Program-made: the position numbers and the translations under genes | Part shown: positions 11,920-58,090 of the stretch, piece after piece | How positions within the stretch are numbered: the stretch's first letter is position 1 | Layout: each line of letters starts with the position of its first letter | The notes under the pieces: generated by a model | Seen by the model: only the letters and a program-made list of their open reading frames with translations | What the model was told of the DNA's origin: nothing | The model's database searches: none | Source: Ceraceosorus guamensis | Taxonomy: Eukaryota > Basidiomycota > Exobasidiomycetes > Ceraceosorales > Ceraceosoraceae | Length of the DNA: 64,000 bases | NCBI RefSeq assembly: GCF_003144195.1 | Contig: NW_020289996.1 | Coordinates: forward strand, 187,419 to 251,418 | Reading direction: 5' to 3'

Positions 11920-14098
11920 ATGGCTCTCTTACCTGCGCAGAAGCCAGAATGGTGGAAGTCGGCGGTGGTCTATCAGATCTACCCATCCTCCTTTAGCGAC
12001 TCGAATGGTGACGGGGTCGGAGATCTGCGCGGCATCATCGAGAAGTTGCCTTACATCAAGTCTTTGGGAGCGGATGTGATCTGGCTCTGTCCGCATTGGG
12101 CATCTCCTGGAGTAGATAATGGCTACGATGTATCCAGCTACGAAGCCATCAATCCGCAATTCGGAACGATGCAGGACAATGAGGATCTGCTAAGGGCGGC
12201 GCACGAACAGGGCTTGAAGGTCATGTTTGACCTCGTCGTCAACCACACCTCCGATCAACACGAGTGGTTCCAAGCTTCGCGTTCATCGCGTGATGACGAC
12301 AGGTCCGATTGGTTCATCTGGAGAGACGCTATCGTGGACCCCAAAGATGGCAGCAGAAGAGAACCCAACAACTGGGCGAGCGTGTGGGGAGGCTCGGCTT
12401 GGACTTGGGACGAGAAGAGGGGGCAATACTTTTTCCACATCTTCTCTCCTCAACAGCCGGACCTGAATTGGGAATCGGAAACGTTGAGGAACGAAGTCTA
12501 CGAAATGGCAAAGAGGTGGAAAGCGCGCGGCGTGGACGGGTGGAGACTGGATGCCATCAACTTCATCAGCAAGCCACAGCACTTGGACGCGAGCGGCAAG
12601 AGGTTGCAAGGCGATTTCCCCGATGCTCCCATCGTCGATTCGCAGGCAAAATATCAGGACGCGACGAAGCTCTACGTGCATGGACCCAAAGTTCATCAGT
12701 GCCTTAAAGAGGTGCGTTTTGCCCTTCGCAGCTACGGGTGTAGCACATCCTGACCTTGATGCCCACGCGAGCACACAGCTTTACAAAGAAGCTCTGGGAC
12801 CAGATACGATGACCGTTGGCGAAGCGTGGGGCACAACGCCTGAGCAGAGTATCGCATACACGGCTTGGGAGACTCGACAAGATCGAGAGCTTCAGATGGT
12901 CTTTAGCACCGAGCACGTAGGTGCGTAGAAAGTGCCGACATCTCTTTCGATCAATTCAAGTCGCTCCTTCTTTCGCACCGTTGGGTTGTCTCTCACATCC
13001 GAATACGCCTTTTTACCCTACAGACCTGTACGGTGGCCTGTCGCCAGCACCACACACAGCTCCAGACCACTCCAAGATGCGACAAACCATCGCCACTTGG
13101 CAATCTTCTCTCATTTCACACGGATCCTGGCTCTCAACTTTCGTCTCGAACCACGATCTTCCACGAGCCATTCCCAACTTCCTGGGTCCACAAGCAGAGA
13201 GGCCAGAGTGGAGAGTCAAAGCTGCTAAGCTCTTGGCCCTGTTTCAGGCTAGTCAGAGCGGCACATTGTTTGTCTACCAGGGCGAAGAGTTGGGAATGAC
13301 GAATGTTCCACACGAATGGGACATTGAACAATATCGCGATCTCGTGGGTGTCTTGCTAGGGTGTGTATCCCGCAGAGTGCTATACTAACATTGCCACTGT
13401 GCGCTGTACAGCTGTCGCTGGACTTTTACAAGAATGAACTCGCCGCACGGCGCGCGAAGTTGGGCGACCCCAGCGCCAAGGTGGACATGAGCGATGTCAT
13501 GGGAGGGTGAGCGATGCGTTATCGGGAAAACAACGAGCTCGTCACTCTTAACAATCCTCCTTTTCTCATGCTCCATCTCATGCGCAGCATTCGGCGCAAA
13601 GCGCGCGACAATTCGCGCACACCATTTCCTTGGAATGGCTCGCTTCCCACAGGTGGCTTTTCGCCCGCCAATAGTCAGACAAGACCCTGGATGCCTCTCA
13701 ATCCAGACTTTGCAGAAGGCCAGGGCAACATCAATGCGGCTTCGCAGTCCAGCGACCCGAACTCCGTCCTCAACTTTTGGAAACGAGCTTTGGCTCTACG
13801 CAAAGCCAATCCCGTGCTCGTGTATGGCACCTTCAAGATGCACGAGGTAGAGCACATCCTGCCACAAGACGCTTCGGAGGAGAACAAGAGCAGGGCGCAC
13901 AAGAGCGTCTATGCGTACGAGAGGGTGCTCGGCGACAAAAAAGCTCTCTATCTGGGCAATTGGGGTTTCGAGGAGGTGAAATTGGATTTGACGCGCGTCG
14001 AGGTTGATCAAACTCAGGAGGCAGCGCTAGCTACCCAGAATGCCTCTGGTCATCTGCTAGGTCCCCTCGAAGCAAGACTCTACCTCTTCGAAGCGTAA
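11920..14098 (+). CDS. GH13 alpha-glucosidase (maltase / oligo-1,6-glucosidase family)
   Basis: Exons: 11920-12711, 12779-12920, 13024-13343, 13412-13506, 13588-14098 (619 aa; fungal maltases are about 580-600). It hydrolyses terminal alpha-glucosidic bonds in maltose-like oligosaccharides, probably in the cytosol since no signal peptide is seen. The start has the family sequence EWWKSAVVYQIYPSSFSDSN. The catalytic triad is visible: nucleophile D211 in GWRLDAINF, acid/base E279 in TVGEAWGT and transition-state D356 in SNHDLPRA. The residue after the nucleophile is Ala, as in alpha-1,4-preferring enzymes, not the Val of yeast isomaltase. No sugar transporter or maltose regulator gene is next to it, so this is not a MAL cluster. 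The start was chosen at the Met just before the conserved domain; longer in-frame forms are less likely. Confidence 0.93.
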
Positions 14099-14334: not shown

Positions 14335-17146
14335 TCATGGCTGTCTGGCTTCCCAGCCTTCCAATGCAAGTTGCCCTCGGGTGTCGAGCGACTTTGCACC
14401 GAATTTTGCTTCCCAAGCTACGATGCCTCCTTGGAGCACAGCCACTCTCTGCGCCGTCTGCTCGTCCGTCAATCCCAATTTGTCCTGCAGCGCATCGGCG
14501 TACCATCCGGCCGAGCGCACGCCCCTGCTCGTTGGCGACGAGCAGGCTTTGCAGTGGAACACGACCAGTGGGACAGAGGAGAGGTGCAAGAGGAGGGATG
14601 GCAGCGAGAGCGGTAAAGTCTGAGCTGGCAGGTTGATAGCGGTGGGGATCAAGGACTGTGAAGGAAGACCGCCGAGTAGTATGCAGTCAGCTGAGTGCCG
14701 ACTCGATACGAACACAGACGACTTCAGGTGTCACATTCGCTGCACTCACCTCGCAGTCGGATCTTCTTACGTCAATGACCAGCGCCTTTTGAGCTGCGTG
14801 TCCATGAGCCGTTTCCTGCTTTTGCAACATGTCTTTGAGCTCCTCAGCTGTCACAGTACGCAAAGGATGCTCGCTTCGCGCTCTGGGAGGGGCATAAGCT
14901 TGGAGCCAATCGGATCGTTGAACAGGGTGTTCCGGCGACTCCTTTGCTGCTGACGTTCCGGCAGCTGCAGACGATGCTGCTACGCTTTGGTCTGTACGAG
15001 CCGTGGCCGCAGTGGCAGCTTCAGCAGATCCGGCTGACGGGCTGCTGAAGGTGAACACAGTCTTAAGGCACTGGATCCGCGAACAGGGGTGGGTTAGATT
15101 TTGCGGCAAGTCACATTGAATGGAGACATGACCAATGCGGGCTGAAAATGGATAGCATTTGAACTGCATGACACGTACCTTTTGCTGCTCAAACAGCTCA
15201 TACCACTTTGGAGCCTCCTCGATCGACACTGTATTCTCCACAAAGGACTCGAAGCTAGATGGCTCGAAAGAGAGCAAGAAATTCATGAGTCGGAAAAGGC
15301 ATTCCCAAGCAATACAGAAGGGCCTCGCGCTAGGTATCTGCGGCACTCACAGATCAGCATTCTTCTTCAGCAGCTCGAGAGCTTCCGGAAAAATGGCGCG
15401 GACTGAACAACGTCCGAATTGGAAGCGAATATTCTGACGTCCACAAGACCAGACAGAGCGTCTTCAGCTTACGGGTGAAGCTTGCCCAGCTTCACGGCAA
15501 GGCCGACTCACTTTGTCTGACGTTGGAAGGCAGCACAAGCACGTGAGAAAAGGCGAGTTCAAGGACCTGAGTATGCGAACTCCAGGTGACGCTATTGAGC
15601 GCATCACTTGTGACTACACTCACTATACAGATCCAGTCCCTTCAACTTCAACTCGTGGGTGTGCAGACCGCAACTGCTGATCACTCCAAAGTTTCTGACC
15701 AGCCCAATGGCCAGATCCAGCGCAGAGGGGTTGCCGACCACTTCCAGCACCACGTCTGCGCCTCTGCCACCCGTCGCTTGCTTGATGCGACTCGTCACGT
15801 CGGGATCGGAAGAGTGGAGGTGCAGAGGTGTGGCTCCGTGCTTAGCTGCTTGGTCTAGCCGAGCAGGCACGCTATCGATCGCGTAGACGTGCTGCGAAGC
15901 GACGCGACGAGAGCAGTGTCAGGGCGTGGTCGAGCGAACGCGACGATCGAGTCACGAGTTGCATATGACGCACGTCGAAGAAATGCTTGGCTGCTGTGAC
16001 GGCGCACAAGCCTACTGGTCCGCAACCGATCACCACGGCAGTCGTATCCTTGCGCTCCGCCTCTCCGAGCATTTTGGCTGCATTTTGAGCGACAAAGAAG
16101 CCTGCAAGAACAAGGCAAAGCGTGTCAGTCTTGAACGGTATGGGTCGTCGATTGAGTGAGGGTCTGATCTTTGCTCGCGCTCACCGGTGGGAAAGATCTG
16201 ATGTGTCGATATGCGTGACGATGCTCGAAAGGGGTTCAGCCCGCGCTTGAAATATGCCGTCTCACAGCAATCTAGTCGCGCCATATACGTGCCATGCCGT
16301 CGAGACATGTGATGCACGCGCTATAGACGCTGCAGTCACGAGTGCAATTAAAGCTTTAATTGTGCGCGACCACTGTGACTCAGACTCACATCGGCCATGA
16401 GGATGAGCACCTGTTCGCTCACACCAGCAGGAGCAGGAAACAGCGTAGTGTCCGCCAATGGGATCCTAGCGTACTCAGCCTGAACGCCTTCCATCGCATT
16501 GCTTCCATACACTCTGCTCTTGACGCATCTCGCCGTCTGCTTTCTCTCGCAGAAAAAGCAGGATCCGCAATTGATTGTAAAAGGCGACACCACCTTTTGA
16601 CCGATTTTGAAATTCTGTATGGACGAGCCTACAGAGTGAACTACACCTGTCAGCTCGTGTCCTAGCACAAAGTCGTACTTGGCCACGGGCTGACTGCGAT
16701 CAAAGAGCGGGAGGAAGGGCGCGCGGCCACACGAATGTCAGTCAGCCTTTGACCTGATGCTTGCCAAGGCAAAGCTGACGACATGCTCATTGGCTCCACT
16801 CACTGGCCCCTGTCTGGAGGATCAAGGCAGCGCAAGGCAGCGTCATGGGCCAAGACGCGCATGCAAAGATTACGCTCGAGTCAGCCGAGTATCAAACGCA
16901 CGTTTGCACCTTTGCCTTGGCTGGCTGGCTGGCTGGCAGGCAATCCAGGCTCACGCGAAGCCTTGCTCGAAACTCACAAATGTGCAGATCGCTACCGCAA
17001 AGCGCAGCAGCTTCCACCTTGACCACCACCTCTTCAGCTTCTGGCACCGGGATCGGTCTGTCCTCCACAACCACCTGGTATGGGGCCTTGATGACGAGGG
17101 CCCTCATCGTGCCTGCTGAGGGAGGTGCAGCTGCACCTTGAGACAT
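14335..17146 (-). CDS. Zinc alcohol/formaldehyde-type dehydrogenase fused to rhodanese (CDC25/Acr2-like) domain
   Basis: Exons in plus coordinates: 16978-17146, 16804-16813, 16390-16693, 16185-16197, 15974-16101, 15624-15891, 15512-15516, 15351-15433, 15179-15254, 14750-15070, 14335-14655 (565 aa). Residues 1-352 are a medium-chain zinc dehydrogenase: catalytic-zinc C50 and H72-E73, structural-zinc C102, C105, C108, C116, and NAD loop GCGPVG at 191-196. Residues 353-423 are an Ala/Ser-rich linker. Residues 424-540 are a rhodanese fold with IDVRRSD and an FHC loop (C494, C497, R503). The frame runs from dehydrogenase into rhodanese without a stop, and no Met could start a whole rhodanese alone. 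Exons of 10, 13 and 5 nt restore YRGHQ, IFPTG and NKN. The dehydrogenase resembles glutathione-linked formaldehyde-type enzymes; the substrate is not known. Starting earlier (17161 or 17218) is possible. Confidence 0.85.
16918..16937. repeat. (TGGC)5 microsatellite
   Basis: Five TGGC units lie inside the first intron of the dehydrogenase-rhodanese gene. They are complementary in sense to the CAGC repeat at 17394-17419. Confidence 0.9.
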
Positions 17147-18201
17147 TTGCCTGTTCTGCATAAATCCTTCCAGCACGTTGTGTTTGGTCCGTTGTGTTGC
17201 AATTAAGCAGAACTCCAATAATCGCCTCTAACAGATCAATGTCTCACTCGAGATGATGATGTACGAGCAGAGCAACGTCCACCAGGTAGGCGAGCGGCTG
17301 AGCTGATCTGGCACGAGGATGCATGAACGCCTGATCCTGACCCGACCCTCTGCGAGTCACGAATTTTGAATGTCGTGTGTGCCCCACAAATTGCAGCCAG
17401 CCAGCCAGCCAGCCAGCCATTCAATTAACATTCAGACTCACGACTACACGACTGCACCACTGTGACTTCCGGCAATTCCGGCAGGCCTTTTCCCCGCATC
17501 CGCAGCCGCGTCGTGCGGTCTGCCTGATTGACGCGCTCGAGCCATCTCAATGGGCGTCACGTGAAGCTTTGAGTGGCTGATTAATCAACATCACGCCACG
17601 CGACTAGCCAATTGATCTAATATAAAGTTGTGATGATCCGAGTAAGGACTACTGGTAAATGCAGATCTGAATCGTTGTGCACTTGACTTTCATCAAAAGA
17701 CGTGAGCTTTTTGAATATTGAAATCTCGAATCTCAAATGAGGATTTCTTGCTTGCTTAACCCTTCATTTGATTGTGATTGTCTCTCGCTCTTGACTCCAC
17801 ATTTACGTGTGCATCGGAAGAGATATGCGCGAGCGAGAGTCGTGAGTATAGAGAGAGAATCTTGAATGCTGACCGACCCATGCGTCGATCCTGGAGCGCG
17901 GCTGCGTTTCAGCTATAGCTGCTGTTCGATCTTCGTACTCCATCACATCCTTCCCTCAATCACTAATCCAGACTCTGATCGAGCATCATCGCGCAATCCC
18001 CATTCGTCTGCTAGCTCAAGCCTCTTGGCGGCCGCAAAAAGAAAACGCTGATCGATTGCACATCAAGGCACATCACCCGCTCCAAAGGTGGTCTTGACTT
18101 TTTTTCCCGTCCCAATTCAATTCATCTCGCCAAAGGGCATCACGGACACTTTTCTCACTGCTGCCAGCTTCAAGAGGCTCAAGGAGAGGCAAAGAAGCAA
18201 G
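17147..18201. other. Divergent promoter region, dehydrogenase-rhodanese / CBP4
   Basis: About 1 kb between divergent genes. It contains the CAGC microsatellite, a TCACGA word near 17358, and an AT-rich stretch around 17580-17780. Pyrimidine-rich DNA near 17900-18000 probably leads into CBP4. No gene was recognised. Confidence 0.5.
17394..17419. repeat. (CAGC)6.5 microsatellite
   Basis: Twenty-six bases of CAGC repeat lie about 250 bp upstream of the dehydrogenase-rhodanese start codon. Its complement matches the TGGC repeat in intron 1 of that gene, so the two form an inverted pair around exon 1. Confidence 0.9.
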
Positions 18202-33687: not shown

Positions 33688-35305
33688 TCAATGACCAAAC
33701 GGCGAGGCGCCGATGCCACCGACCCAAGTGCCTTCGCCAAGACCAGAGCTAGCACTCTCGTGGGGGCCAACTGATGGAACGGCCGGAGGCGCATTCAATC
33801 CGCCACGAGAGGGGTTGCTGGCCCTGAAGCTTGGGCTCGCACCTCGAGTAGCACGACTCGCACCAGCGCCGTAGTGATCATGCGCATGGCGCGCCATGAT
33901 GCCAGCTAGAGGTCCTACAAGACGCTTGAAAGCAGACTCCGACAAAGTGGCCAGACGCAATGCGGGAGACGAAGCGACAATTGAGGCGGCTCTGGGTGCG
34001 TTGTTGAGCAGAGCGAGTTCTGGACGGAACCGATACGGTGCAAGAAGAGGTCAACACTTTGTTCAGACACCAGAGAGGCTCATCTTCTGCAATCTCACCC
34101 CCGAAATAGTCTCCTTCAGCAAGCTTGCCTATTGCTTCCTCCACACCATCCTGCTCGCGCCTCTTTTGAACCTCGGCGTGGCCATCGAGGATGATGAAGA
34201 ACTCGGTGCCACGTTCGCCCTGCTCGATTACCCGAGTACCTGCTGGCACTTCGCGTTGCTCGAGCGCATCGGCAATCTTTGCGCGCTCGGCGTCGGACAG
34301 CGTTTCAAATAAGCTGACCTTTCTCAAGTGCGACTCGAAGAGTGCTCGACGACGGCTGTTGGCACCGATGACGATGGAGCGGAATGTGATGCGGTCTAGT
34401 GCCCAGACGATTGAAGGCTCGGTGCTCACGACACTGGCAGCGCGTGGTTGGGCATAGAGCAGCGCGAGCTCTCCGAAGTAGGAAGAGGGCCCGCACACAG
34501 CCTTCTTGTCGCCCAGATCGAGGGTGTCCCCAGCGCGTCTACCTCCATTCGCAGAATCATCGTCGGAACCACCGGCGCTCGACGCTGCGCCTGTAGGCTT
34601 GATGTAGATCTCAAAGGAGCCAGACTCCACGATGTAGAAGTAGTCGCCTTGATCGCCCTGTCTGATGATGCACTCGTGCGCAGGCACGCGAACTTCCTTC
34701 ATCGCATTGACAACGTCTTGTTCCTGCTCCAAGTCGAGGGAGTTGAAGAGCAAGTTGCCTTTGATAGAAGCGCGAATGCGCTCCAGCTGCAAGGAACTCT
34801 TAGGGATGACTGTCTTTGGTGCGGGGGCCTCATCACCCGCGCTCGAAAGAGGCGCAAGGGACTCGGCACTGACAGAGGTTCGACGACCAAGGTTGTACGT
34901 TGCGGAAGGAGCAGAGAATGGCTGAAGGGTATCATCATCTTCCGACGAAGCTGTGGTTTGAGCAAGCGATACGATGGACCCATCGCGCGAAGGTGGCTGC
35001 AAAGAAAATGCGGGTCCAGCACTGGAGCTAGCACCAAAGGGATTGGCGTTTGAGAAAGGGCCACCGGCAGAAGTCATCGTCACATCATCTGGACCGCCGG
35101 CAGTGGAGGCAAGAGGCGAAGCAGCATCGACAGCACCTGCTGCTGCTGTGCCATCTGCACCACGAGCCAAGGTAGCCTTGCGCTCATTCTCCAGTCGCTG
35201 ATTGAACCAGTTGGCGCAGAATTGAAGGGGGTCGAGCGGCCTGAAACGCACGACGTCGCGATTAAGATCGTTCAGGATTTGCGCGTAAGAGTTCGGCAGC
35301 GCCAT
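33688..35305 (-). CDS. cAMP-dependent protein kinase regulatory subunit
   Basis: Exons in plus coordinates: 34099-35305 and 33688-34019 (512 aa; Ustilago Ubc1 is of similar length). It holds the PKA catalytic subunit inactive until cAMP binds. Residues 1-45 resemble the dimerisation/docking helices (SYAQILNDLNRDVVRFRPLDPLQF). The inhibitory site is RRTS at 141-144 in GRRTSVSAE, a phosphorylatable, type II-like site. Two cyclic-nucleotide domains follow, with cassettes FGELALLYAQPRAASV and FGELALLNNAPRAASI, each with the Glu and Arg that contact cAMP. The single intron splits the second cassette just after Gly. A Ser/Asp/Gly-rich loop of about 25 residues sits inside the first domain, and the C-terminal 70 residues are Gly/Pro/Ser-rich and unusual. 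The frame is open upstream of 35305, but the family start is there. Confidence 0.95.
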
Positions 35306-36285
35306 CTTGAGGCTGATGGGCAGGGCTAGGATGCTGAAACGTTGCAACAAGAGGTAAGGGACCGGAGGGCAGTCTAGTCTTGGTGAATCTCCTGATGTGT
35401 ATACCGCTTGGTCGGTGGAGTAGAAAGGATGGTCAGTCAGATTGGCATTCAACTGGATGATCAGAAGGCGCGAGATGTGCCTGGACCTGGTTGAACTCGA
35501 TCTTGACTCTTGACTTGAGCTGGTGGTCCAAGCGCTATACACGCGCATTCCCCAGTATTCACGAGTTGCCTCGATCCCGTGCGGTGCTGGTGCCGCTTGT
35601 GGCTGATGTTGCACGATGAGCCCATGCATGGCAGCGTCCGTTGGCGGCGGTGCGCTGCTGCACTTCCCAATTTAGAGCAGCTAGAAAGGCGGGCGGGCGG
35701 GCAGTCGCGTTTCGGATTGACTCGTGACTAGGCGCGCGCGCGCGACTGCCGAGTCGGGCGCGGTAAGTTTGCATGGAGTCTTGAGTCTAATTGAGTGAAA
35801 TCGTGAGTGAGAACGCGGTCTTGAGTCAAGAGTGGTACGCGCAAGTCACCAATCGTGAAGGTTGAGGTCACGAGACACGCAACTCGCAACGTACGGCTTC
35901 ATCAGGATCTTGGATCTTCCTGCACCGTAATTCACATTTCCGTCCATTCAAGACCTGTGTGCCGAACACTTTGACTGCTGCTCCACAACCCACTGGTCAA
36001 CTACCCGTCGCACCTACAGAGCCACCTGCTGACGGAAGGCTCTCGCCACTGCCTCTTCTTTTGCGCATCGCATACACCCCCGAAATTTGACTCGCTGCGT
36101 TCGCATCACAGCCTCACGGACTCCATCGCAATTTCTAGCGGCGGCCTTTTGCCTGCAAGATTTGCGAAGACATAATAAGGCTCAAAGTCCTGTCCATCAT
36201 CGGCACCTATGTGTAGGCCCACACTTTGAACACTAGGACAAACGGTCAAAAATCGGACAAGCAAGTGCAGGTGCATCGTTTTGCC
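35306..36285. other. Divergent promoter region PKA-R / LEA1
   Basis: About 1 kb. It has a GGCGGGCGGGCGG run near 35688-35701, a (GC)6 run at 35732-35744, and several TCGTGA, TCTTGA and TGAGTC words between 35710 and 35880. No gene seen. Confidence 0.5.
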
Positions 36286-39325: not shown

Positions 39326-42300
39326 ATGAACAGCATCAATGATACCCACATGAGCTCTCTGAGCAGCGCTGCTGCGGACATTCCGTCATCAGCTGCTGAG
39401 CTGCCCAAACCCGTGTCATCCGACACCATCTCGCAGTCGCAATCGCAGTCTTCTTCACTCGTCCTGTGCCACAGACCGGCACCACCAGCCTTCAGCGATG
39501 AAGATGGCGATGCAACTGGTTCTATCAAGTCGGAGTTGAGCTCGATTGCGTCCGACTCTCCTGGTCCAAAAGCCCCTTCCTCTTCTTCGAGCTCCCGCTC
39601 TGCTTCGCCGTCTCGGATGCCGAACAGTGGGCGCCCACATATCGCTGCGCTAGGTGAAACATCAGCACAGGGCTCCATGCGGTCGGGAAGCGTCTCTTCT
39701 GTTTCAAGGTCACCTTCCTATACGTCTCGACCCGAACCACGCAAACCTGCGCAGCGCTTGAACGAAGCAGCTGCTAATCCAGAGCTGTATGGCCTGAGGC
39801 GTTCGGTGAGTAAGCTCGGAGATCTCACAGTCCTCGTGGACGGAGGGTCCGAGGCGTTGGGGCTTGATCCGAAGCGAGCTGGTCAGGGAGCTTCATAAGC
39901 TCGAATTTGTTGTTTAGTACGTACTGACACTCTTGCTACTGCTCCATCGGACCGCGATCTCCAGGGTCGCGCAACAAAGCAAAGTGTGAGTAGCAGGCAT
40001 GTCACAAGCATACAAACGCTTCCAGCGGCCTTGACTCTACCTACGAGCTGACACTTAAATCTCAAATCCCACGTACAGTACATCGATAGCTCCAGTGGCG
40101 AGGATGACGACAGCGGCGATGCTCTTCCTGGCAGAGCGTCGCGCAACGTGAAGTCCGCGAAACGTGCAGCCGCACTGAAGTCGAAAGCGAGGGGTAAGCA
40201 TGGTGACGACTGGATGCCCCGAGTACCATCTTTCCTTGCTCACGAGGCTTCTCGCTGTGTCCTGCAGAAACTTTTCGCAGTGCAGCCAGAGATGATGGTT
40301 CGGAGAGCTCAGACGACTATGCACAGCGAACCCATCGGAAGGCAGGGGCGCCCAAAGCTGGCACGCGCCGCACAGTGGGCAGGCATCGCAATCAACGTCC
40401 CTCGCCTAACGAAGACGAAGACTCCGCCGACATTGCGAGGATACCCTCTAGAGGGAACCGCAAGCCAAATTACAACGAGGACCAGCTGGGTCTGTCGTTC
40501 GAGTCTGATGACGATCCCTTTGAGGACCGGGCGACGGAAGCAAACGCAGCGTACATGCAGGCGCTGCCAGATGGAGGTGAGTGGAGAATACACGCGAATG
40601 ACGCGACGAACCACGTTGGCTGAATGGCGGCGCCCTTGCACTTGCGACATCTGTGTAGAACTGGAGGCCATCGAGGGAGTCTTTGGCCACACCCGGGCTC
40701 AGGATTTTCGTGAGTATTGCTGCTATGTTCTTGCGTCTGTCTTTCCGTGCTCACGCGGTGACAGCCATCCGCCGCCTCGCGCTTTGCAGTCGACGACAAG
40801 GAGGACCTTCCAACAAAGAACATGGTGTACACCATCAAATGGCAGGGTTATTCTCATCTCCATGACACCGAAGAAACTTACGACTTTCTGATCAAAAGCG
40901 GCTACGGAGGCTTGAAGCGGCTAGAGAATTACATTCGGCAAATCGTTCGACCTGAAATTGAATTGCTCAAGAATCCAGAGACAAGCAGAGAGGATGTGGA
41001 ACTGCTCCACATTGACAAGGAACGGCAAAAGGACGCTGTCGAGGGGTTCAAAGTGGTAGAAAGGATATTGGACCAACGCCAGAATGAGCCCAGCAAGGAT
41101 CATCCATACTCACACCTCGCCTACTTCTGCAAATGGAAGGGCTTGTCTTATGCGGACTGCACCTGGGAAGCCAACGAAGATATCAAAGATGAGGCTTCGA
41201 GACCCATCCAAGCATATTTGAAACGAGTGGCTTGCAAGACTAAGCCTGAACACAGCCAAGCCTACCACCGAGGTCGACCCGTCTACACTAGAATGACGGA
41301 GCAGCCGACATACATCTCGCCAGGAGGGGAGCTCAAGCCTTTTCAAATGCGTGGCTTGAATTGGCTTGCATACCTCTGGTCTAACAACCAGAACGGCATC
41401 TTGGCAGACGAGGTGCGTGGGTGCGCGGAATGAGCTCAAGGGTCGTCGCTGACTCGTGCATCTTCACCACTACAGATGGGCTTAGGCAAAACAGTCCAGA
41501 CCGTTGCTTTCTTGTCCTATCTCTTCCACTCTCAGCATCAGTACGGCCCCTTCCTCGTAGTCGTTCCCCTGTCCACGCTCCCGGCCTGGATGCAGCAGTT
41601 TGAGGTGTGGGCACCGGATATGAACGTCGTCAGCTACATCGGCAGCGCCAAAAGCCGTGAGATCATCCGCGGCTACGAATTTGGATCACAAAAACGACTC
41701 AAAATCAACGTTCTCGTGACCACGTACGAGTTCGTCCTCAAAGACCGAGCCGACTTGAGCTCGATCAAATGGCAATTTCTCGCTGTTGACGAGGTGAGAC
41801 AATCTCGTCAAGCTATGCCAAGTACGTCGAACGCTAATCAGCCATCTCATCTTCCAGGCGCACCGGTTGAAAAATTCAAGTGCGCAGCTATACGAGTGTT
41901 TGATGTCTTTCCACACTGCAAACAAGCTGCTCATCACTGGTACACCACTCCAGAACAATATCAAAGGTGAGCTTCGAATGTGCTGTGAAGGCGCATTTGC
42001 GCGGGATTGCAATCGTCGCTCACGTTTACGATCTACCCTTTCATCTCAGAATTGATCGCCTTAATGCACTTTCTGCGCCCGGATGAATTTCCTTTGGAGG
42101 TCGACTTCGACACCGAAAATGTCGACCCTGCATCCGTTCGAGCGCTACACGAGAAGCTCGACAACGTCATGATCAGAAGACTTAAGAAGGATGTCGTTAA
42201 AGAGCTGCCGACAAAATCAGAGAAGATACTGCGGGTGGAGATGTCCTCCATGCAGCAAAGAATGTACAAGGCAATCTTGACGCGCAACTTTTCCCTTCTC

Positions 42301-45300
42301 AGCCAGTCGTCGTCAGCTCAATTCAGCCTGCTCAATATCGCGATCGAGCTCAAGAAGGCGTCGAATCATCCGTACTTGTTTGAAGGAGCAGAGGTCCCGT
42401 CGGAGAAGCGCGAGGAGACCCTGAAGAATATGGTCATGCACAGCGGCAAGATGGTCCTCGTCGACAAATTGTTGACGCGTCTGAAGCAAGACGGTCACCG
42501 TGTCCTCATTTTTAGTCAAATGGTGAGAATGCTGGACATACTGTCTGACTACATGTCACTACGCGGATACATCTTCCAGAGGCTTGACGGCACCATCTCG
42601 TCAGAGCTCCGCCGCAAGAGCATCGAGCATTTCAATGCTCCTGATTCGCCAGACTTTGCCTTTCTGCTTTCCACGCGTGCCGGCGGTCTCGGTATCAATC
42701 TGGAGACGGCAGACACCGTCATCATCTTTGACTCTGATTGGAACCCTCAAAATGACCTGCAGGCCATGGCGCGTGCGCATCGACTCACATCGAAGCACCA
42801 CGTCTCCGTTTTCCGCTTGGTCACCGCCGACACAATCGAAGAGAGCGTCCTCGAGAAGGCTCGTCAAAAGATGCTTCTCGAACATGCTGTGATTGCCAAC
42901 CTCGACACTTCAGGTACAGACTACGAGGCTGGAAAAATTGCGAAGGCGTCCAAATCCGCCAACAACCCGTCGCGTGACGAGCTTGCTCAGATCTTGAAGC
43001 TTGGAGCTCAGACGCTGTTCCAGAGAGGCGAGGATGATCAGAACACCAAGCTGTCCCGTCTCGATCTCGATCAACTGTTGGAAAGCGCCGTGGATTTGGA
43101 GACTGCTGGCGACACCCACACTTCCACGGGTGGCGAAGCTTTTGCCAAGCTGTTCAACGTGTCGGACATAAAGGTTGGTGATACCGACTGGGATGACATT
43201 GTGCCGCTCGAAGAACGGCAAAAGGCCGAGGAAGAAGAGCGGCAGCGCGCAGTCCATGAAGCGGCCGCTGCAAGCTCAAGTCGCAGGCGCACAGCCGCTG
43301 ACGATGGCATTGCTAAGACTGCCAAGGCGAAGGCTACCGGCTCGGACGAAGATGTTGAAGACGAGGATGATGACGAGGATGAAGAGGATGACGACGATGA
43401 GAAGGCTGGCGGCAAGCGCGCTCGCAAAAGCGGAGGTGCTGGGGGTGCGGCGCGCTTGGCAAAGCAGCGCAAGTCTGCCGCTGAGCGATCCATGGATCTT
43501 TCGGACCGTGATCTGCGAGTTCTCATCCGGGGCATTCAACGTTGGGGCGACATACGCTGGCGTTACGACACCATCGCCGGCGAGGGCAGGCTGCATTCGA
43601 AGAATAGAGCTGTTCTAGAAAGCTTCTCGGATGACCTCATCGCCGAGTCTGAGAAGGCGGCAGCTGCACATGAGGAAGAGAAGCAAGCTGCTGCTGCCAC
43701 CAGCCCCGAGGCTGCTGCCGCTTTGAGGCAGAAAGCTGTGATGGTCACAGTCCGTGGTATCTCAACCAACGGCGAGACAACGTTACTTCGTCACCACGGA
43801 CTTCGATTACTGTTTCAAAAGCTGCATAAGCTCAGTGAAGACAAGCGCATGAAGTGGAGCGTGCCCGTCGAGCATCTGAAAGGCACAGCCAATTGGGCGA
43901 ATGGATGGGGCGACGAGCTCGACGCCAGGCTGCTGGTCGGAATCTTCAAACACGGCTTTGGCTGCTGGGAGCAGATAGAGGGCGACGACTCGCTGGGACT
44001 TAAGAATTACTTCTTCTTGGAGGAAGGAAAGAAAATCATCGAGCCGAAGTCGGCTGCTGGTGCTGAGGGAACGCATGCGGACGACGCCACACAGGCAAAC
44101 GCGACACAGGCAGTCGAGAGCAAGCCCAAGCGCAAGTTACCGACCATGGCCGCACGTCCCATTCCCAATGCTATCCACCTTGTACGCCGCGGAGACTACT
44201 TGCTCCGTGAAATGCTCGACGCAGGTGAGTCAAACAAAGTCAAGCAGTCGGTTCGAATTCACGTGTGCTAGACTGAACCTTTTGCACCCACTTGTAGACG
44301 AGCACCAGAGGCAGTTGCGCGACACAAAGCAGAAGAATGGCAAGGATGTCAAAGAAGCCAAGAGTGCTGCCTTCGCGGCCGAAAAGCAGACGGTTTCTGC
44401 ACCTCACAACAAAAAGGCGCGAAAGACGAGCGAGGCACGCAGCGGCCACGACTCCCCAGTTCCCGCTCCTGCGCCTGGCAAGGCGAAGGGCATCAAGTTG
44501 AGTAGACCAAAGAAAAGATCACCGGCTGCGACCGTTAAACCAGAGGACACGCACACGGAGGAAGAGGATAAATCATCTTATTCCAGCATGGACGAGGAGG
44601 ATTGCAAAGAATTGATGCGACCCTGCCGGAAGGAATTGAAGCGTTTGAAGGAGACTGAAACCATGTCGCGCGAAGACAAGGTCGTAGTGCTTAAAGAAAG
44701 CCTCTCGGCCATCGGCGGCTGCATTCAGAACATCGCTACCCGCTTCAAAGATCAGCCAGCCTCAGCGGCAGCTAGACAGCGGCGTCATCTATGGGCTTGG
44801 GCGGCCTTCTTCTGGCCGAGACCAGTCAAGGCAGCCCAGCTTCGCGGCATATACCGCAAGATGACGGGCGCCAGCGACGTCGCCGCATCGCCAATTCCAG
44901 CACCTGCGGTAATTCCGGCCGTCAAGAAAAGACAGCGTCCTTCGGAAGATCATGCGGCTCATGTGCCATCTCCCTTGGCTATCAAGAGCGATGCTAGCGC
45001 CAAAAAGCCCCGCATTTCCCCTGTCAATGGTGCGCCGAAGTCGGATCACAAGGCTCCCGAACAGTCGCAAGCAGCTGCAGCGTCTCCAACGAGAGGGGAA
45101 GATCCCAAGGCCACCACCGTGGCGGCTACAAACAGTGTCACTGTAGAAGACCGTAGTCGCGCTGGATCCGTTCGCACGCTCGAAAATTCGGCGCACGGGT
45201 CACCGTACAACAAGCCAGGTGCGCTGCCGCGTGCCAACGACTCGCCACGGCCGGCAGCACGTGCGTCTCCTCCAGAACGCCAACATAACGGGAGCTCTTC

Positions 45301-55877: not shown

Positions 55878-58090
55878 TCACGCCAACATGCGCTTGTAAA
55901 CGATATTGTCCGTCTCTTCCTGATAAGTGTAGCCCAGCTCGTCCAGGTAAGCGTGGAATGCATCCGCATCCTCAGGCGGCACTTGTAGTCCCGCCAACAC
56001 CTTGGAAGTGTCGCTGCCATGATTACGATAGTGAAAGAGGGTGATGTTCCAACCTGCGTGCAGGCCCTCCAAGAAACGCTTCAACGCTCCTGGTCTCTCA
56101 GGGAAGACTGCGAGCAGGGCAAAGAATAGCATGACACGTCAAATCACTCCTCGTAGCGAGCAAATGTAGTGCTCTGCGAGCCGCCGGCGGGACGAAGCAA
56201 GGGTAGACTCACTGAACTGGAAAAGTCGCACATTTTCCGCTTGCTTTCCAGACCGACCTCCGACCATGTACCTAGCGTGCGATTTTGCCATCTCGTTATC
56301 GCTGATGTCCGTCGCGCGCATGGTGCCGTCCGCCTCGATCGCTCTCATGATGGGGTCGAGCTCTGCGTGCCTTGCCCTGCTCTGCTCAAGAGCCACGGGT
56401 TCCATCGATGTGGTGGGTGTCGTCGGATTGCTCTGCTGTCTAGACCCGGCTTGGTGTGGCGAAGGCGCCCGTCCCGGGCTGTCGGTACCTCGACCTGATG
56501 GCACTTCTCTGTGCACCGCGGTGGGACCGTGAGCCGAAGCAGCAGCTGCAGGCGCTGGAAGAGCGCCGGTGTTGTTCCCACTCAGCATGAAGGAGAGATA
56601 GATGTGAGCTCTGTTCGTGTCTCCCATTCTGTACGAGAACTCGGTCAGATTGCGTGGCTGGATATGCGCGTAGAGTTTCAAGAAGCTGCAGAAGAGAGTG
56701 TGTGAATAAGCCGAGATTGTCAGTGTCGCAATGAGAAGAGCTTTCACAGAGGCTGCCAGAAGTCTCACCTGCCACGTTCCTCCGGAATGTCCACCATCAA
56801 AAGAACCTCCTTTTGGTCTCCTAACTCGGCTCGTTCGGCGACGAACCGTAACCTTGAGAAGTTCATATTGGCCCCGCTTACGATAGCTGCAAAGCGCTTG
56901 CCTGAGCCGTGCAAGCCTTGCTCGGTGACGTATCGCTTCATGCCTGCTACTGCCAAAGCGCCTGCTGGTTCCGGCACGGATCGCGTATCTGTGAAGGGCG
57001 GGGAGAGGACTAAGTGCCAGTCACAGATCAAGCTGCGTCAAGCTTCACGGCCAACTCTCACCTTCAAAGACATCGCGAATGGCTGCACAAATCTCATCCG
57101 TGTCGACCCGCACGATGCCGTCCACCAGCTCCGCGCACACTCTAAAAGTCTCTTCGCCGATGAGTCGAACCGCTGTTCCATCGGAGAATAGACCGACTTC
57201 CTTCAACAACTCCCTCTGCCCCTTGACCAAGCTTCTAGCGAGCGCATCTCCATCATAGGTCTCCACGCCAACGACTTTGACGTGTGGTGGGGCAATGCGC
57301 TTCACGTACGCTGCAATGCCTGCCAGCAAGCCACCTCCACCCACGCAGACAAAGACGGCATCTATCCGGCTCATGTCCGTCTGTCTACAAAGCTCTACGC
57401 CGACGGTGCCTTGACCAGCAATGACCAGGGGATGGTCGAAAGGAGGAATCAAGGTCAGCCCGTAGGCCGTGGCTAGCCTCCGACATTCCGCTTGAGCTCC
57501 ATCAAAGTCCGTGCCGTGCAACACCACTTTGGCGCCCAGTCTGCGCACTGCGTCCACTTTGATGGATGGGGTGCCCATCGGCATGACGATGGTGCAGGGG
57601 ATGGACAAGTGCAAACCTGATAGCGCGACACCTTGAGCATGATTGCCTGCACCAGCACACGGTGCATGAGGCGCGCGGAGGAGTGAGTATGGTTGGACCT
57701 CACCGCGGGCGCGCTGGACGAGTTGCAAGACTTACCAGCACTACACGCAATGACGCCTTTCCACTTGCTCTCGCCTTGCAGACTCCTCATCATATTGTAA
57801 GCACCTCGAAGCTTGAAGCTGAAGACAGGTTGTAGATCTTCCCTCTTCATGAACACATCACAGCCCAATCTGCTAGAGAGGTTGGTAGCGGTCTGGAGCG
57901 GAGTCGATTTGACTAGATCGTACACGTCTGCGCTGAGCGTCAGTCGAAGGTAATCGGGCGTTCCGTCTGCCAAGACATGGTGAGGAGGCAAGTCGTAGGA
58001 CTGGGTGCCGCTTGACGAAGATTGCGCTTGAGCCTCGGGAAAAGGACCCGGTTGCCAGGCCGGGAGTCTGCTCGTTGATGGGGCAGTCAT
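55878..58090 (-). CDS. Threonine deaminase (threonine ammonia-lyase)
   Basis: Exons in plus coordinates: 57736-58090, 57062-57646, 56769-56988, 56213-56685, 55878-56107 (620 aa; yeast Ilv1 is 576). It turns threonine into 2-oxobutanoate and ammonia, the first committed step to isoleucine, in mitochondria. The PLP lysine is K93 in [11 protein letters not shown]; the phosphate loop is [10 protein letters not shown]. The two ACT-like regulatory subdomains that bind isoleucine and valine follow ([35 protein letters not shown]). Between conserved parts of the first subdomain, residues 424-490 are an Ala/Pro/Ser/Thr-rich insertion. A mitochondrial presequence is not clear from the first 40 residues, which are Pro/Ser/Gln-rich with few basic residues, so targeting may be weak or the start may lie in an unseen upstream exon. 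A Gcn4-type box lies 199 bp upstream. Confidence 0.94.

Follow-up and report, generated by a model that had tools for sequence, protein, structure and literature searches.

The gene for a putative dehydrogenase-rhodanese protein encoded in this 64,000-nucleotide stretch of DNA (hereafter, the window) raises the question of whether exons of 10, 13 and 5 nt can be genuine parts of a coding sequence. Located on the minus strand between 17161 and 14335, the gene is modelled as 11 exons, of which 8 are ordinary and 3 are micro-exons, giving 1713 nt and 570 aa; the spliced frame contains no internal stop, and its sole stop is the final one, at 14335. An initial annotation had placed the micro-exons at 16813-16804, 16197-16185 and 15516-15512, each preceded by CAG and followed by GTGAGT or GTGAGC, and had proposed that they restore three motifs of the protein family. 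All of these elements are present in the DNA. Micro-exon 1 encodes Y-R-G-H directly after CGSDLHI, and its splicing yields LHIYRGHQPV; micro-exon 2 encodes I-F-P-T-G, yielding MADIFPTGFF; and micro-exon 3 finishes an N codon and provides the K of LYNKN, yielding LYNKNIRFQ. The list of splice junctions that had been offered was correct in the four that it gave and incomplete, as 16390-16197 and 16185-16101 also belong to it. The coordinates of the full model, together with those of a neighbouring gene used as a control, are collected in the Table.

Table. Exons and introns of the dehydrogenase-rhodanese gene model, in order of transcription, and the control gene.
Feature	Coordinates	Strand	Length (nt)	Details
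Exon 1	16978..17161	-	184	ATG at 17161; ends in phase 1 (CAC ATT T); spliced aligner gives the same 3' end, 16978
Intron 1	16814..16977	-	164	gtgagt...ccag
Micro-exon 1	16804..16813	-	10	ACAGGGGCCA; cag before, gtgagt after; phase 1 -> 2
Intron 2	16694..16803	-	110	gtgagt...gcag
Exon 3	16390..16693	-	304	last codon is the family Asp (86/87 relatives)
Intron 3	16198..16389	-	192	gtgagt...tcag
Micro-exon 2	16185..16197	-	13	ATCTTTCCCACCG; cag before, gtgagc after; phase 0 -> 1
Intron 4	16102..16184	-	83	gtgagc...gcag
Exon 5	15974..16101	-	128	carries the NAD-fold glycine motif
Intron 5	15892..15973	-	82	gtgcgt...gcag
Exon 6	15624..15891	-	268	
Intron 6	15517..15623	-	107	gtgagt...tcag
Micro-exon 3	15512..15516	-	5	ACAAA; cag before, gtgagt after; phase 1 -> 0
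Intron 7	15434..15511	-	78	gtgagt...tcag
Exon 8	15351..15433	-	83	hand model and spliced aligner
Intron 8	15255..15350	-	96	gtgagt...ctag
Exon 9	15179..15254	-	76	3' end (intron 9 donor) set by hand
Intron 9	15071..15178	-	108	gtacgt...ccag
Exon 10	14750..15070	-	321	C-terminal end of the dehydrogenase, linker and first part of the rhodanese-like domain, all in one frame
Intron 10	14656..14749	-	94	gtgagt...acag
Exon 11	14335..14655	-	321	remainder of rhodanese-like domain and stop
Control: GH13 alpha-glucosidase gene	11920-14098	+		convergent neighbour; hand model, 5 exons: 792, 142, 320, 95 and 511 nt

The predicted product is a zinc-type medium-chain dehydrogenase that ends in a rhodanese-like domain. 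In a Pfam scan the spliced protein matched ADH_N at 92.5 bits (cut-off 23.5) and ADH_zinc_N at 82.3 bits (cut-off 31.8), whereas the match to Rhodanese (PF00581) was marginal, its 22.7 bits barely exceeding the cut-off of 22.2. The rhodanese-like part contains a CSSPTSR loop, which is CX5R-like, and a comparison of this part with the PDB gave no significant match (best E 0.8). An alignment of 11 sequences revealed that C37, H59, E60, C92, C95, C103, G178, G180 and G183 (alignment numbering) are invariant and that C89 is nearly so; we take these residues to be the catalytic-zinc Cys with its His-Glu pair, the four structural-zinc Cys and a GxGxxG-type NAD motif. Exon 10 spans, without interruption, the C-terminus of the dehydrogenase (KCLKTVFTF) and the first part of the rhodanese-like domain, and the fusion is therefore encoded in a single frame. 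No account of a dehydrogenase-rhodanese fusion was found among the titles and abstract openings of the literature searched. The state of the sequence also bears on whether the locus is a decaying pseudogene, in which the apparent exons are coincidental remains. This is highly improbable, given that the zinc-site residues, the NAD motif and the frame are intact across the dehydrogenase and that 1713 nt are read without an internal stop or frameshift.

We also examined the genomic surroundings. A scan of ten long open frames in the window revealed relatives of BRE1, CHD1, a regulatory subunit of PKA and an AGC-type kinase, which indicates that the window is eukaryotic, and a fungal, probably basidiomycete, origin appears to fit its gene content, its base composition and the shortness of its introns. 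Neither Rfam (at the gathering threshold) nor a tRNA scan gave any match in the window. The PKA regulatory subunit-like gene (33881-35671) is a single open stretch of 597 codons and the CHD1-like gene (41989-44268) is another of 760 codons; beside these, the dehydrogenase gene appears rich in introns for its locality. A possible parallel is a bacterial gene transferred to basidiomycetes, which rapidly gained many introns according to the available passages of one report (PMC3584928).

To place the micro-exons within the protein family, the spliced product was compared with a profile of 87 prokaryotic relatives, from which the window sequence was left out. The profile includes 77 genome loci, which remained from 80 kept out of 348 confirmed after three (L014, L061 and L078) were dropped for open frames below 300 aa, and 10 plasmid genes, which were taken for variety from 60 of 3629 matching plasmid records and are 32-37% identical to the window protein. 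Single-sequence scans of viral and genome contigs gave no confirmed relative, whereas alignment-based scans did yield relatives; 26 viral-contig loci from the alignment-based scan were kept out of the profile. The spliced protein scored 333 bits against this profile and aligned gap-free at all three micro-exon junctions, and the number of residues across the junctions was equal in 86, 87 and 87 of the 87 relatives for micro-exons 1, 2 and 3, respectively. The residues themselves are matched unevenly: for micro-exon 1, Y in 54, R in 11, G in 73 and H in 1 of the 87; for micro-exon 2, I in 66, F in 29, P in 67, T in 85 and G in 66; and for micro-exon 3, N in 23 and K in 43. Judged against these relatives, which are distant as well as prokaryotic, conservation is strongest in micro-exon 2 and weakest in micro-exon 3.

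Splicing models were then enumerated for each of the stretches that hold micro-exons 1, 2 and 3 (gaps A, B and C, respectively), with the other two gaps fixed at the model of the initial annotation. The enumeration covered one-intron models, two-intron models and retention, with introns of at least 40 nt. Donors were GT or GC for one intron and GT for two, and sites were allowed anywhere inside the gap and as far as 36 nt into either flanking exon. A separate enumeration was restricted to consensus sites, defined as GTRNGY donors and YAG acceptors, which were allowed up to 60 nt into the flanking exons. The site classes, the 40-nt minimum intron and a 3-bit cost of other sites were our own choice, and models whose protein was cut by a stop to below about 20 aa were left unscored.

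The micro-exon model ranked first in every gap, with 335.0 bits among 4569 (A), 2908 (B) and 1437 (C) models. When any sites were admitted, the runners-up reached 331.5, 327.3 and 331.7 bits, so that the margin is small in gap A (3.5 bits) and gap C (3.3 bits); the first donors of these two runners-up, GTTTCG and GTTGAA, are depleted in the window, with 20 occurrences each against 31.7 and 30.4 expected. In gap A, an inner exon of 6-23 nt is present in each of the 12 top-scoring models, and the profile alone therefore picks among them less sharply. The runner-up in gap B has the same micro-exon, and the best model without it scored 322.0 bits. Once only consensus sites were admitted, the best models lacking the respective micro-exon reached 324.1, 314.4 and 302.6 bits in gaps A, B and C, a lead of 10.9, 20.6 and 32.4 bits for the micro-exon model; the 314.4-bit model of gap B includes a 136-nt inner exon whose end is the micro-exon 2 sequence.

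These scores bear directly on the possibility that one or more of the micro-exons is an artefact, the true structure being a one-piece intron with a shifted, weaker site and a protein carrying a small insertion, deletion or substitution relative to its relatives. When weak sites were allowed, the best one-intron models scored 324.6, 319.6 and 327.3 bits against 335.0, that is, only 10.4, 15.4 and 7.7 bits lower, and the one in gap A pairs a CAAG acceptor with a donor that fits the consensus, GTGAGC at 16954. However, the best one-intron models of gaps B and C require the donors GCCGAT and GTTGAA and the acceptors CAAG and GAAG, and with consensus sequence at both ends the one-intron scores were at most 321.7, 178.4 and 302.6 bits in gaps A, B and C. 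We consider an artefact of this kind unlikely. Each micro-exon is needed for the frame and for the family sequence and is flanked by consensus-type sites, and no ordinary model fits equally.

A custom frame-aware spliced aligner was supplied with genomic sequence 17300-14900 and the profile, with all gaps left free and no exon coordinates. It recovered all three micro-exons to the exact nucleotide at intron costs of 4, 6, 8, 10 and 12 bits. At costs of 14 and 15, micro-exons 1 and 2 were kept and micro-exon 3 was lost along with the 3' part of the gene, and at a cost of 20 all three were lost. The end of exon 9 was placed by the aligner at 15173 (6 nt further) at costs of 4 and 6, and at 15167 (12 nt further, with no exon 10) at costs of 8-12; because these positions differ from ours, the exon 9 donor rests on the hand model. 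In the control gene, for which the profile consisted of 8 bacterial relatives taken from 30 listed matches, the aligner produced no micro-exon, its smallest exon being at least 74 nt at costs of 6, 8, 10 and 12. Its agreement with the hand model of that gene was incomplete: exon 4 began 21 nt later, an extra intron split the last exon at a cost of 6, and exons were merged at a cost of 12. Together, the prokaryotic comparison, the model ranking and the aligner support the earlier suggestion that the micro-exons are needed for the frame and motifs of the predicted dehydrogenase.

The initial annotation had further argued that three such fits are unlikely to arise by chance. This was examined by shuffling the inner sequence of the introns with dinucleotides preserved and with the first 6 and last 15 nt fixed. 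With any AG and GT sites admitted and one gap tested at a time, the other two staying at the annotated model, 335.0 bits were reached by 1, 0 and 1 of 1500 shuffles in gaps A, B and C, respectively. With consensus sites (YAG/GTRNGY) this score was reached by 0 of 1500 in each gap, the best shuffles scoring 331.2, 324.4 and 334.5 bits. The aligner was more permissive, and at a cost of 8 it placed an inner exon of at most 15 nt in 47, 11 and 62 of 300 shuffles (A, B and C), falling to 17, 1 and 39 at a cost of 10; for inner exons of any size the counts were 48, 53 and 88 of 300 at a cost of 8 and 17, 19 and 54 at a cost of 10. Because the aligner also invents micro-exons in shuffled gaps, its single calls are no proof. 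An inner exon of at most 15 nt in all three gaps at once was seen in 1 of 300 shuffles at a cost of 8 and in 0 of 300 at a cost of 10, and the score of the real whole gene was reached by 0 of 300 at a cost of 8 and by 1 of 300 at a cost of 10 (255.4 against 253.3 bits for the real gene). The argument from chance thus holds for the three micro-exons jointly and is weaker for each taken singly, since an exon of at most 15 nt was called in as many as 62 of 300 shuffles of one gap: a lone micro-exon call is weak, and the joint occurrence of all three, at consensus sites and with the highest profile score, makes a strong case.

A related question is how often introns placed at random would leave exons of this size. 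Ten introns in 1713 nt are expected to give 0.66 exons of at most 13 nt, with a probability of 0.02 for three or more; for the dehydrogenase part considered separately (9 introns in 1098 nt), the corresponding values are 0.82 and 0.03. An exon of at most 5 nt would occur somewhere with a probability of 0.23. Three exons of at most 13 nt thus exceed the random expectation, and chance closeness of introns is a possible but strained account.

All ten introns are of the GT-AG type, and their donors comprise seven GTGAGT and one each of GTGAGC, GTGCGT and GTACGT. GTGAGT occurs 82 times in the window against 36.5 expected and is the top GT hexamer by (seen-expected)/sqrt(expected), although rarer GT hexamers exceed it in the ratio of seen to expected; GTGAGC, the donor after micro-exon 2, is depleted (42 seen against 64.1 expected). 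The splice sites by themselves prove little, because GTGAGT is common and GTGAGC falls below expectation. A branch-point-like motif (CTRAM or CTYAY) was located 10-65 nt from the 3' end in nine of the ten introns, and the last 65 nt of intron 1 contain no match to this simple pattern.

The presence of ten introns, seven of them beginning with GTGAGT, might suggest that the introns flanking the micro-exons are repeatedly inserted copies of one mobile intron, or introner (background on introner-like elements is given in the available passages of PMC4457414). However, a search of the 64-kb window at E up to 0.1 gave no intron-intron match longer than 12 nt, and we regard this origin as very doubtful indeed. 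Apart from themselves, the introns matched only three features of the window: a repeat tract upstream of the gene, a palindrome that lies inside intron 3, and a single stretch of 36 nt at 81% (57299-57333). The palindrome is a perfect one of 18 nt (16345-16362). Read in the sense of the transcript, a CCAG repeat tract of intron 1 (16918-16941) is complementary to a GGCT repeat tract that precedes the start codon (17394-17419), over 24 nt at 96%; the two could pair around exon 1 if both were transcribed.

Taken together, these observations suggest that the three micro-exons are very probably genuine coding exons, included constitutively, of a zinc-type dehydrogenase gene whose genome is probably fungal. 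In fungi, introns are short and, on the common view, each is recognised as a unit. If the cell recognises the short introns of this gene in the same manner, an exon of 5-13 nt would present no obstacle. Since 5 nt leave too little room for a 3' splice-site complex on one side and U1 on the other at the same time, the flanking introns would probably be removed in turn, with the micro-exon probably joining one neighbour first. The micro-exons probably originated when pairs of introns ended up near each other, rather than through any function that a tiny exon might serve.

The lengths of the micro-exons (10, 13 and 5 nt) are not multiples of 3, and skipping micro-exon 1, 2 or 3 would truncate the frame to 71, 189 or 328 aa, respectively; they therefore cannot be cassette exons that give two working proteins. 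The same property could be read as regulated unproductive splicing, in which a micro-exon would be skipped on purpose to switch the gene off through an early stop. This would be compatible with the same exon structure, and a precedent exists in the glucose-dependent switch of a 20-nt micro-exon in Trichoderma Xlr2, as described in the available part of that report (PMC11121469). An early stop is, however, expected from skipping any exon of a length not divisible by 3, and the consensus-type flanking sites point to constitutive inclusion, so that an off-switch seems improbable. It is similarly improbable, in our estimate, that the frame-breaking micro-exons serve as a gate on splicing fidelity, whereby production of the enzyme would require splice sites lying close together to be used in the proper order, its level would track the splicing machinery, and the stepwise joining would be like recursive splicing.

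Exons of this size are not without company. The initial annotation had considered 5 nt to be near the lower limit known for eukaryotes, which overstates the rarity of such exons. The available passages of the relevant reports describe a one-nucleotide exon in the CYP621A P450 genes of Fusarium, based on 18 RNA reads and 20 orthologous genes, and mention an 8-nt exon in Phanerochaete (PMC12940212). They also describe P450 micro-exons of the basidiomycete Phanerochaete chrysosporium that code for 2-10 aa, the shortest being 6 bp, and that are spread genome-wide (PMC1184071). In plants, one-nucleotide exons are present in APC11 and VPS55, and a rice transcript contains adjacent micro-exons of 5 and 12 nt; the plant micro-exons were found by RNA-seq and confirmed in part by RT-PCR, as far as the accessible text relates (PMC8831610). 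A 5-nt exon is thus not exceptional, exons of such size, down to 1 nt, being already established. A micro-exon setting of a read mapper is also mentioned in passages of three further papers (PMC3990503, PMC4014442, PMC8022950).

The closest comparison is with Fusarium CYP621A. In both cases the gene is fungal (here probably so), the tiny exon falls in a conserved motif, the frame is lost without it, and it was inferred from relatives, which in Fusarium include an intronless one. The Fusarium exon differs in being 1 nt long and in its support from RNA reads and 20 orthologues, whereas the present exons are of 5, 10 and 13 nt, in one gene, and predicted from DNA alone. As in the P450 genes of Phanerochaete chrysosporium, tiny exons are found here in a metabolic gene, although the gene family is another and the passages available on that organism contain no 5-nt case. 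The plant micro-exons of at most 15 nt (PMC8831610, as available) are of the same size class and differ in their host and in their discovery by RNA-seq. The Trichoderma virens Xlr2 micro-exon is likewise of a fungal type and of a length that is not a multiple of 3, but it is 20 nt long, glucose-regulated and part of a transcription factor gene (PMC11121469, in the portion available), whereas the exons described here are 5-13 nt long and belong to a dehydrogenase. Among the matches listed in the open-licence literature, titles and abstract openings gave no report of this gene or of three such exons in one fungal dehydrogenase.

Exons this small are often missed by annotation, according to the available passages of two of these reports (PMC8831610, PMC12940212), and the predicted enzyme is therefore probably wrong in automatic annotation. 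The gene leaves ideas of what is possible in splicing unchanged. It adds a probably fungal gene for a plain metabolic enzyme with three predicted exons below 15 nt, one of them of 5 nt, and it illustrates that such exons may be proposed directly from genomic DNA by means of a prokaryotic profile and a frame-aware aligner.
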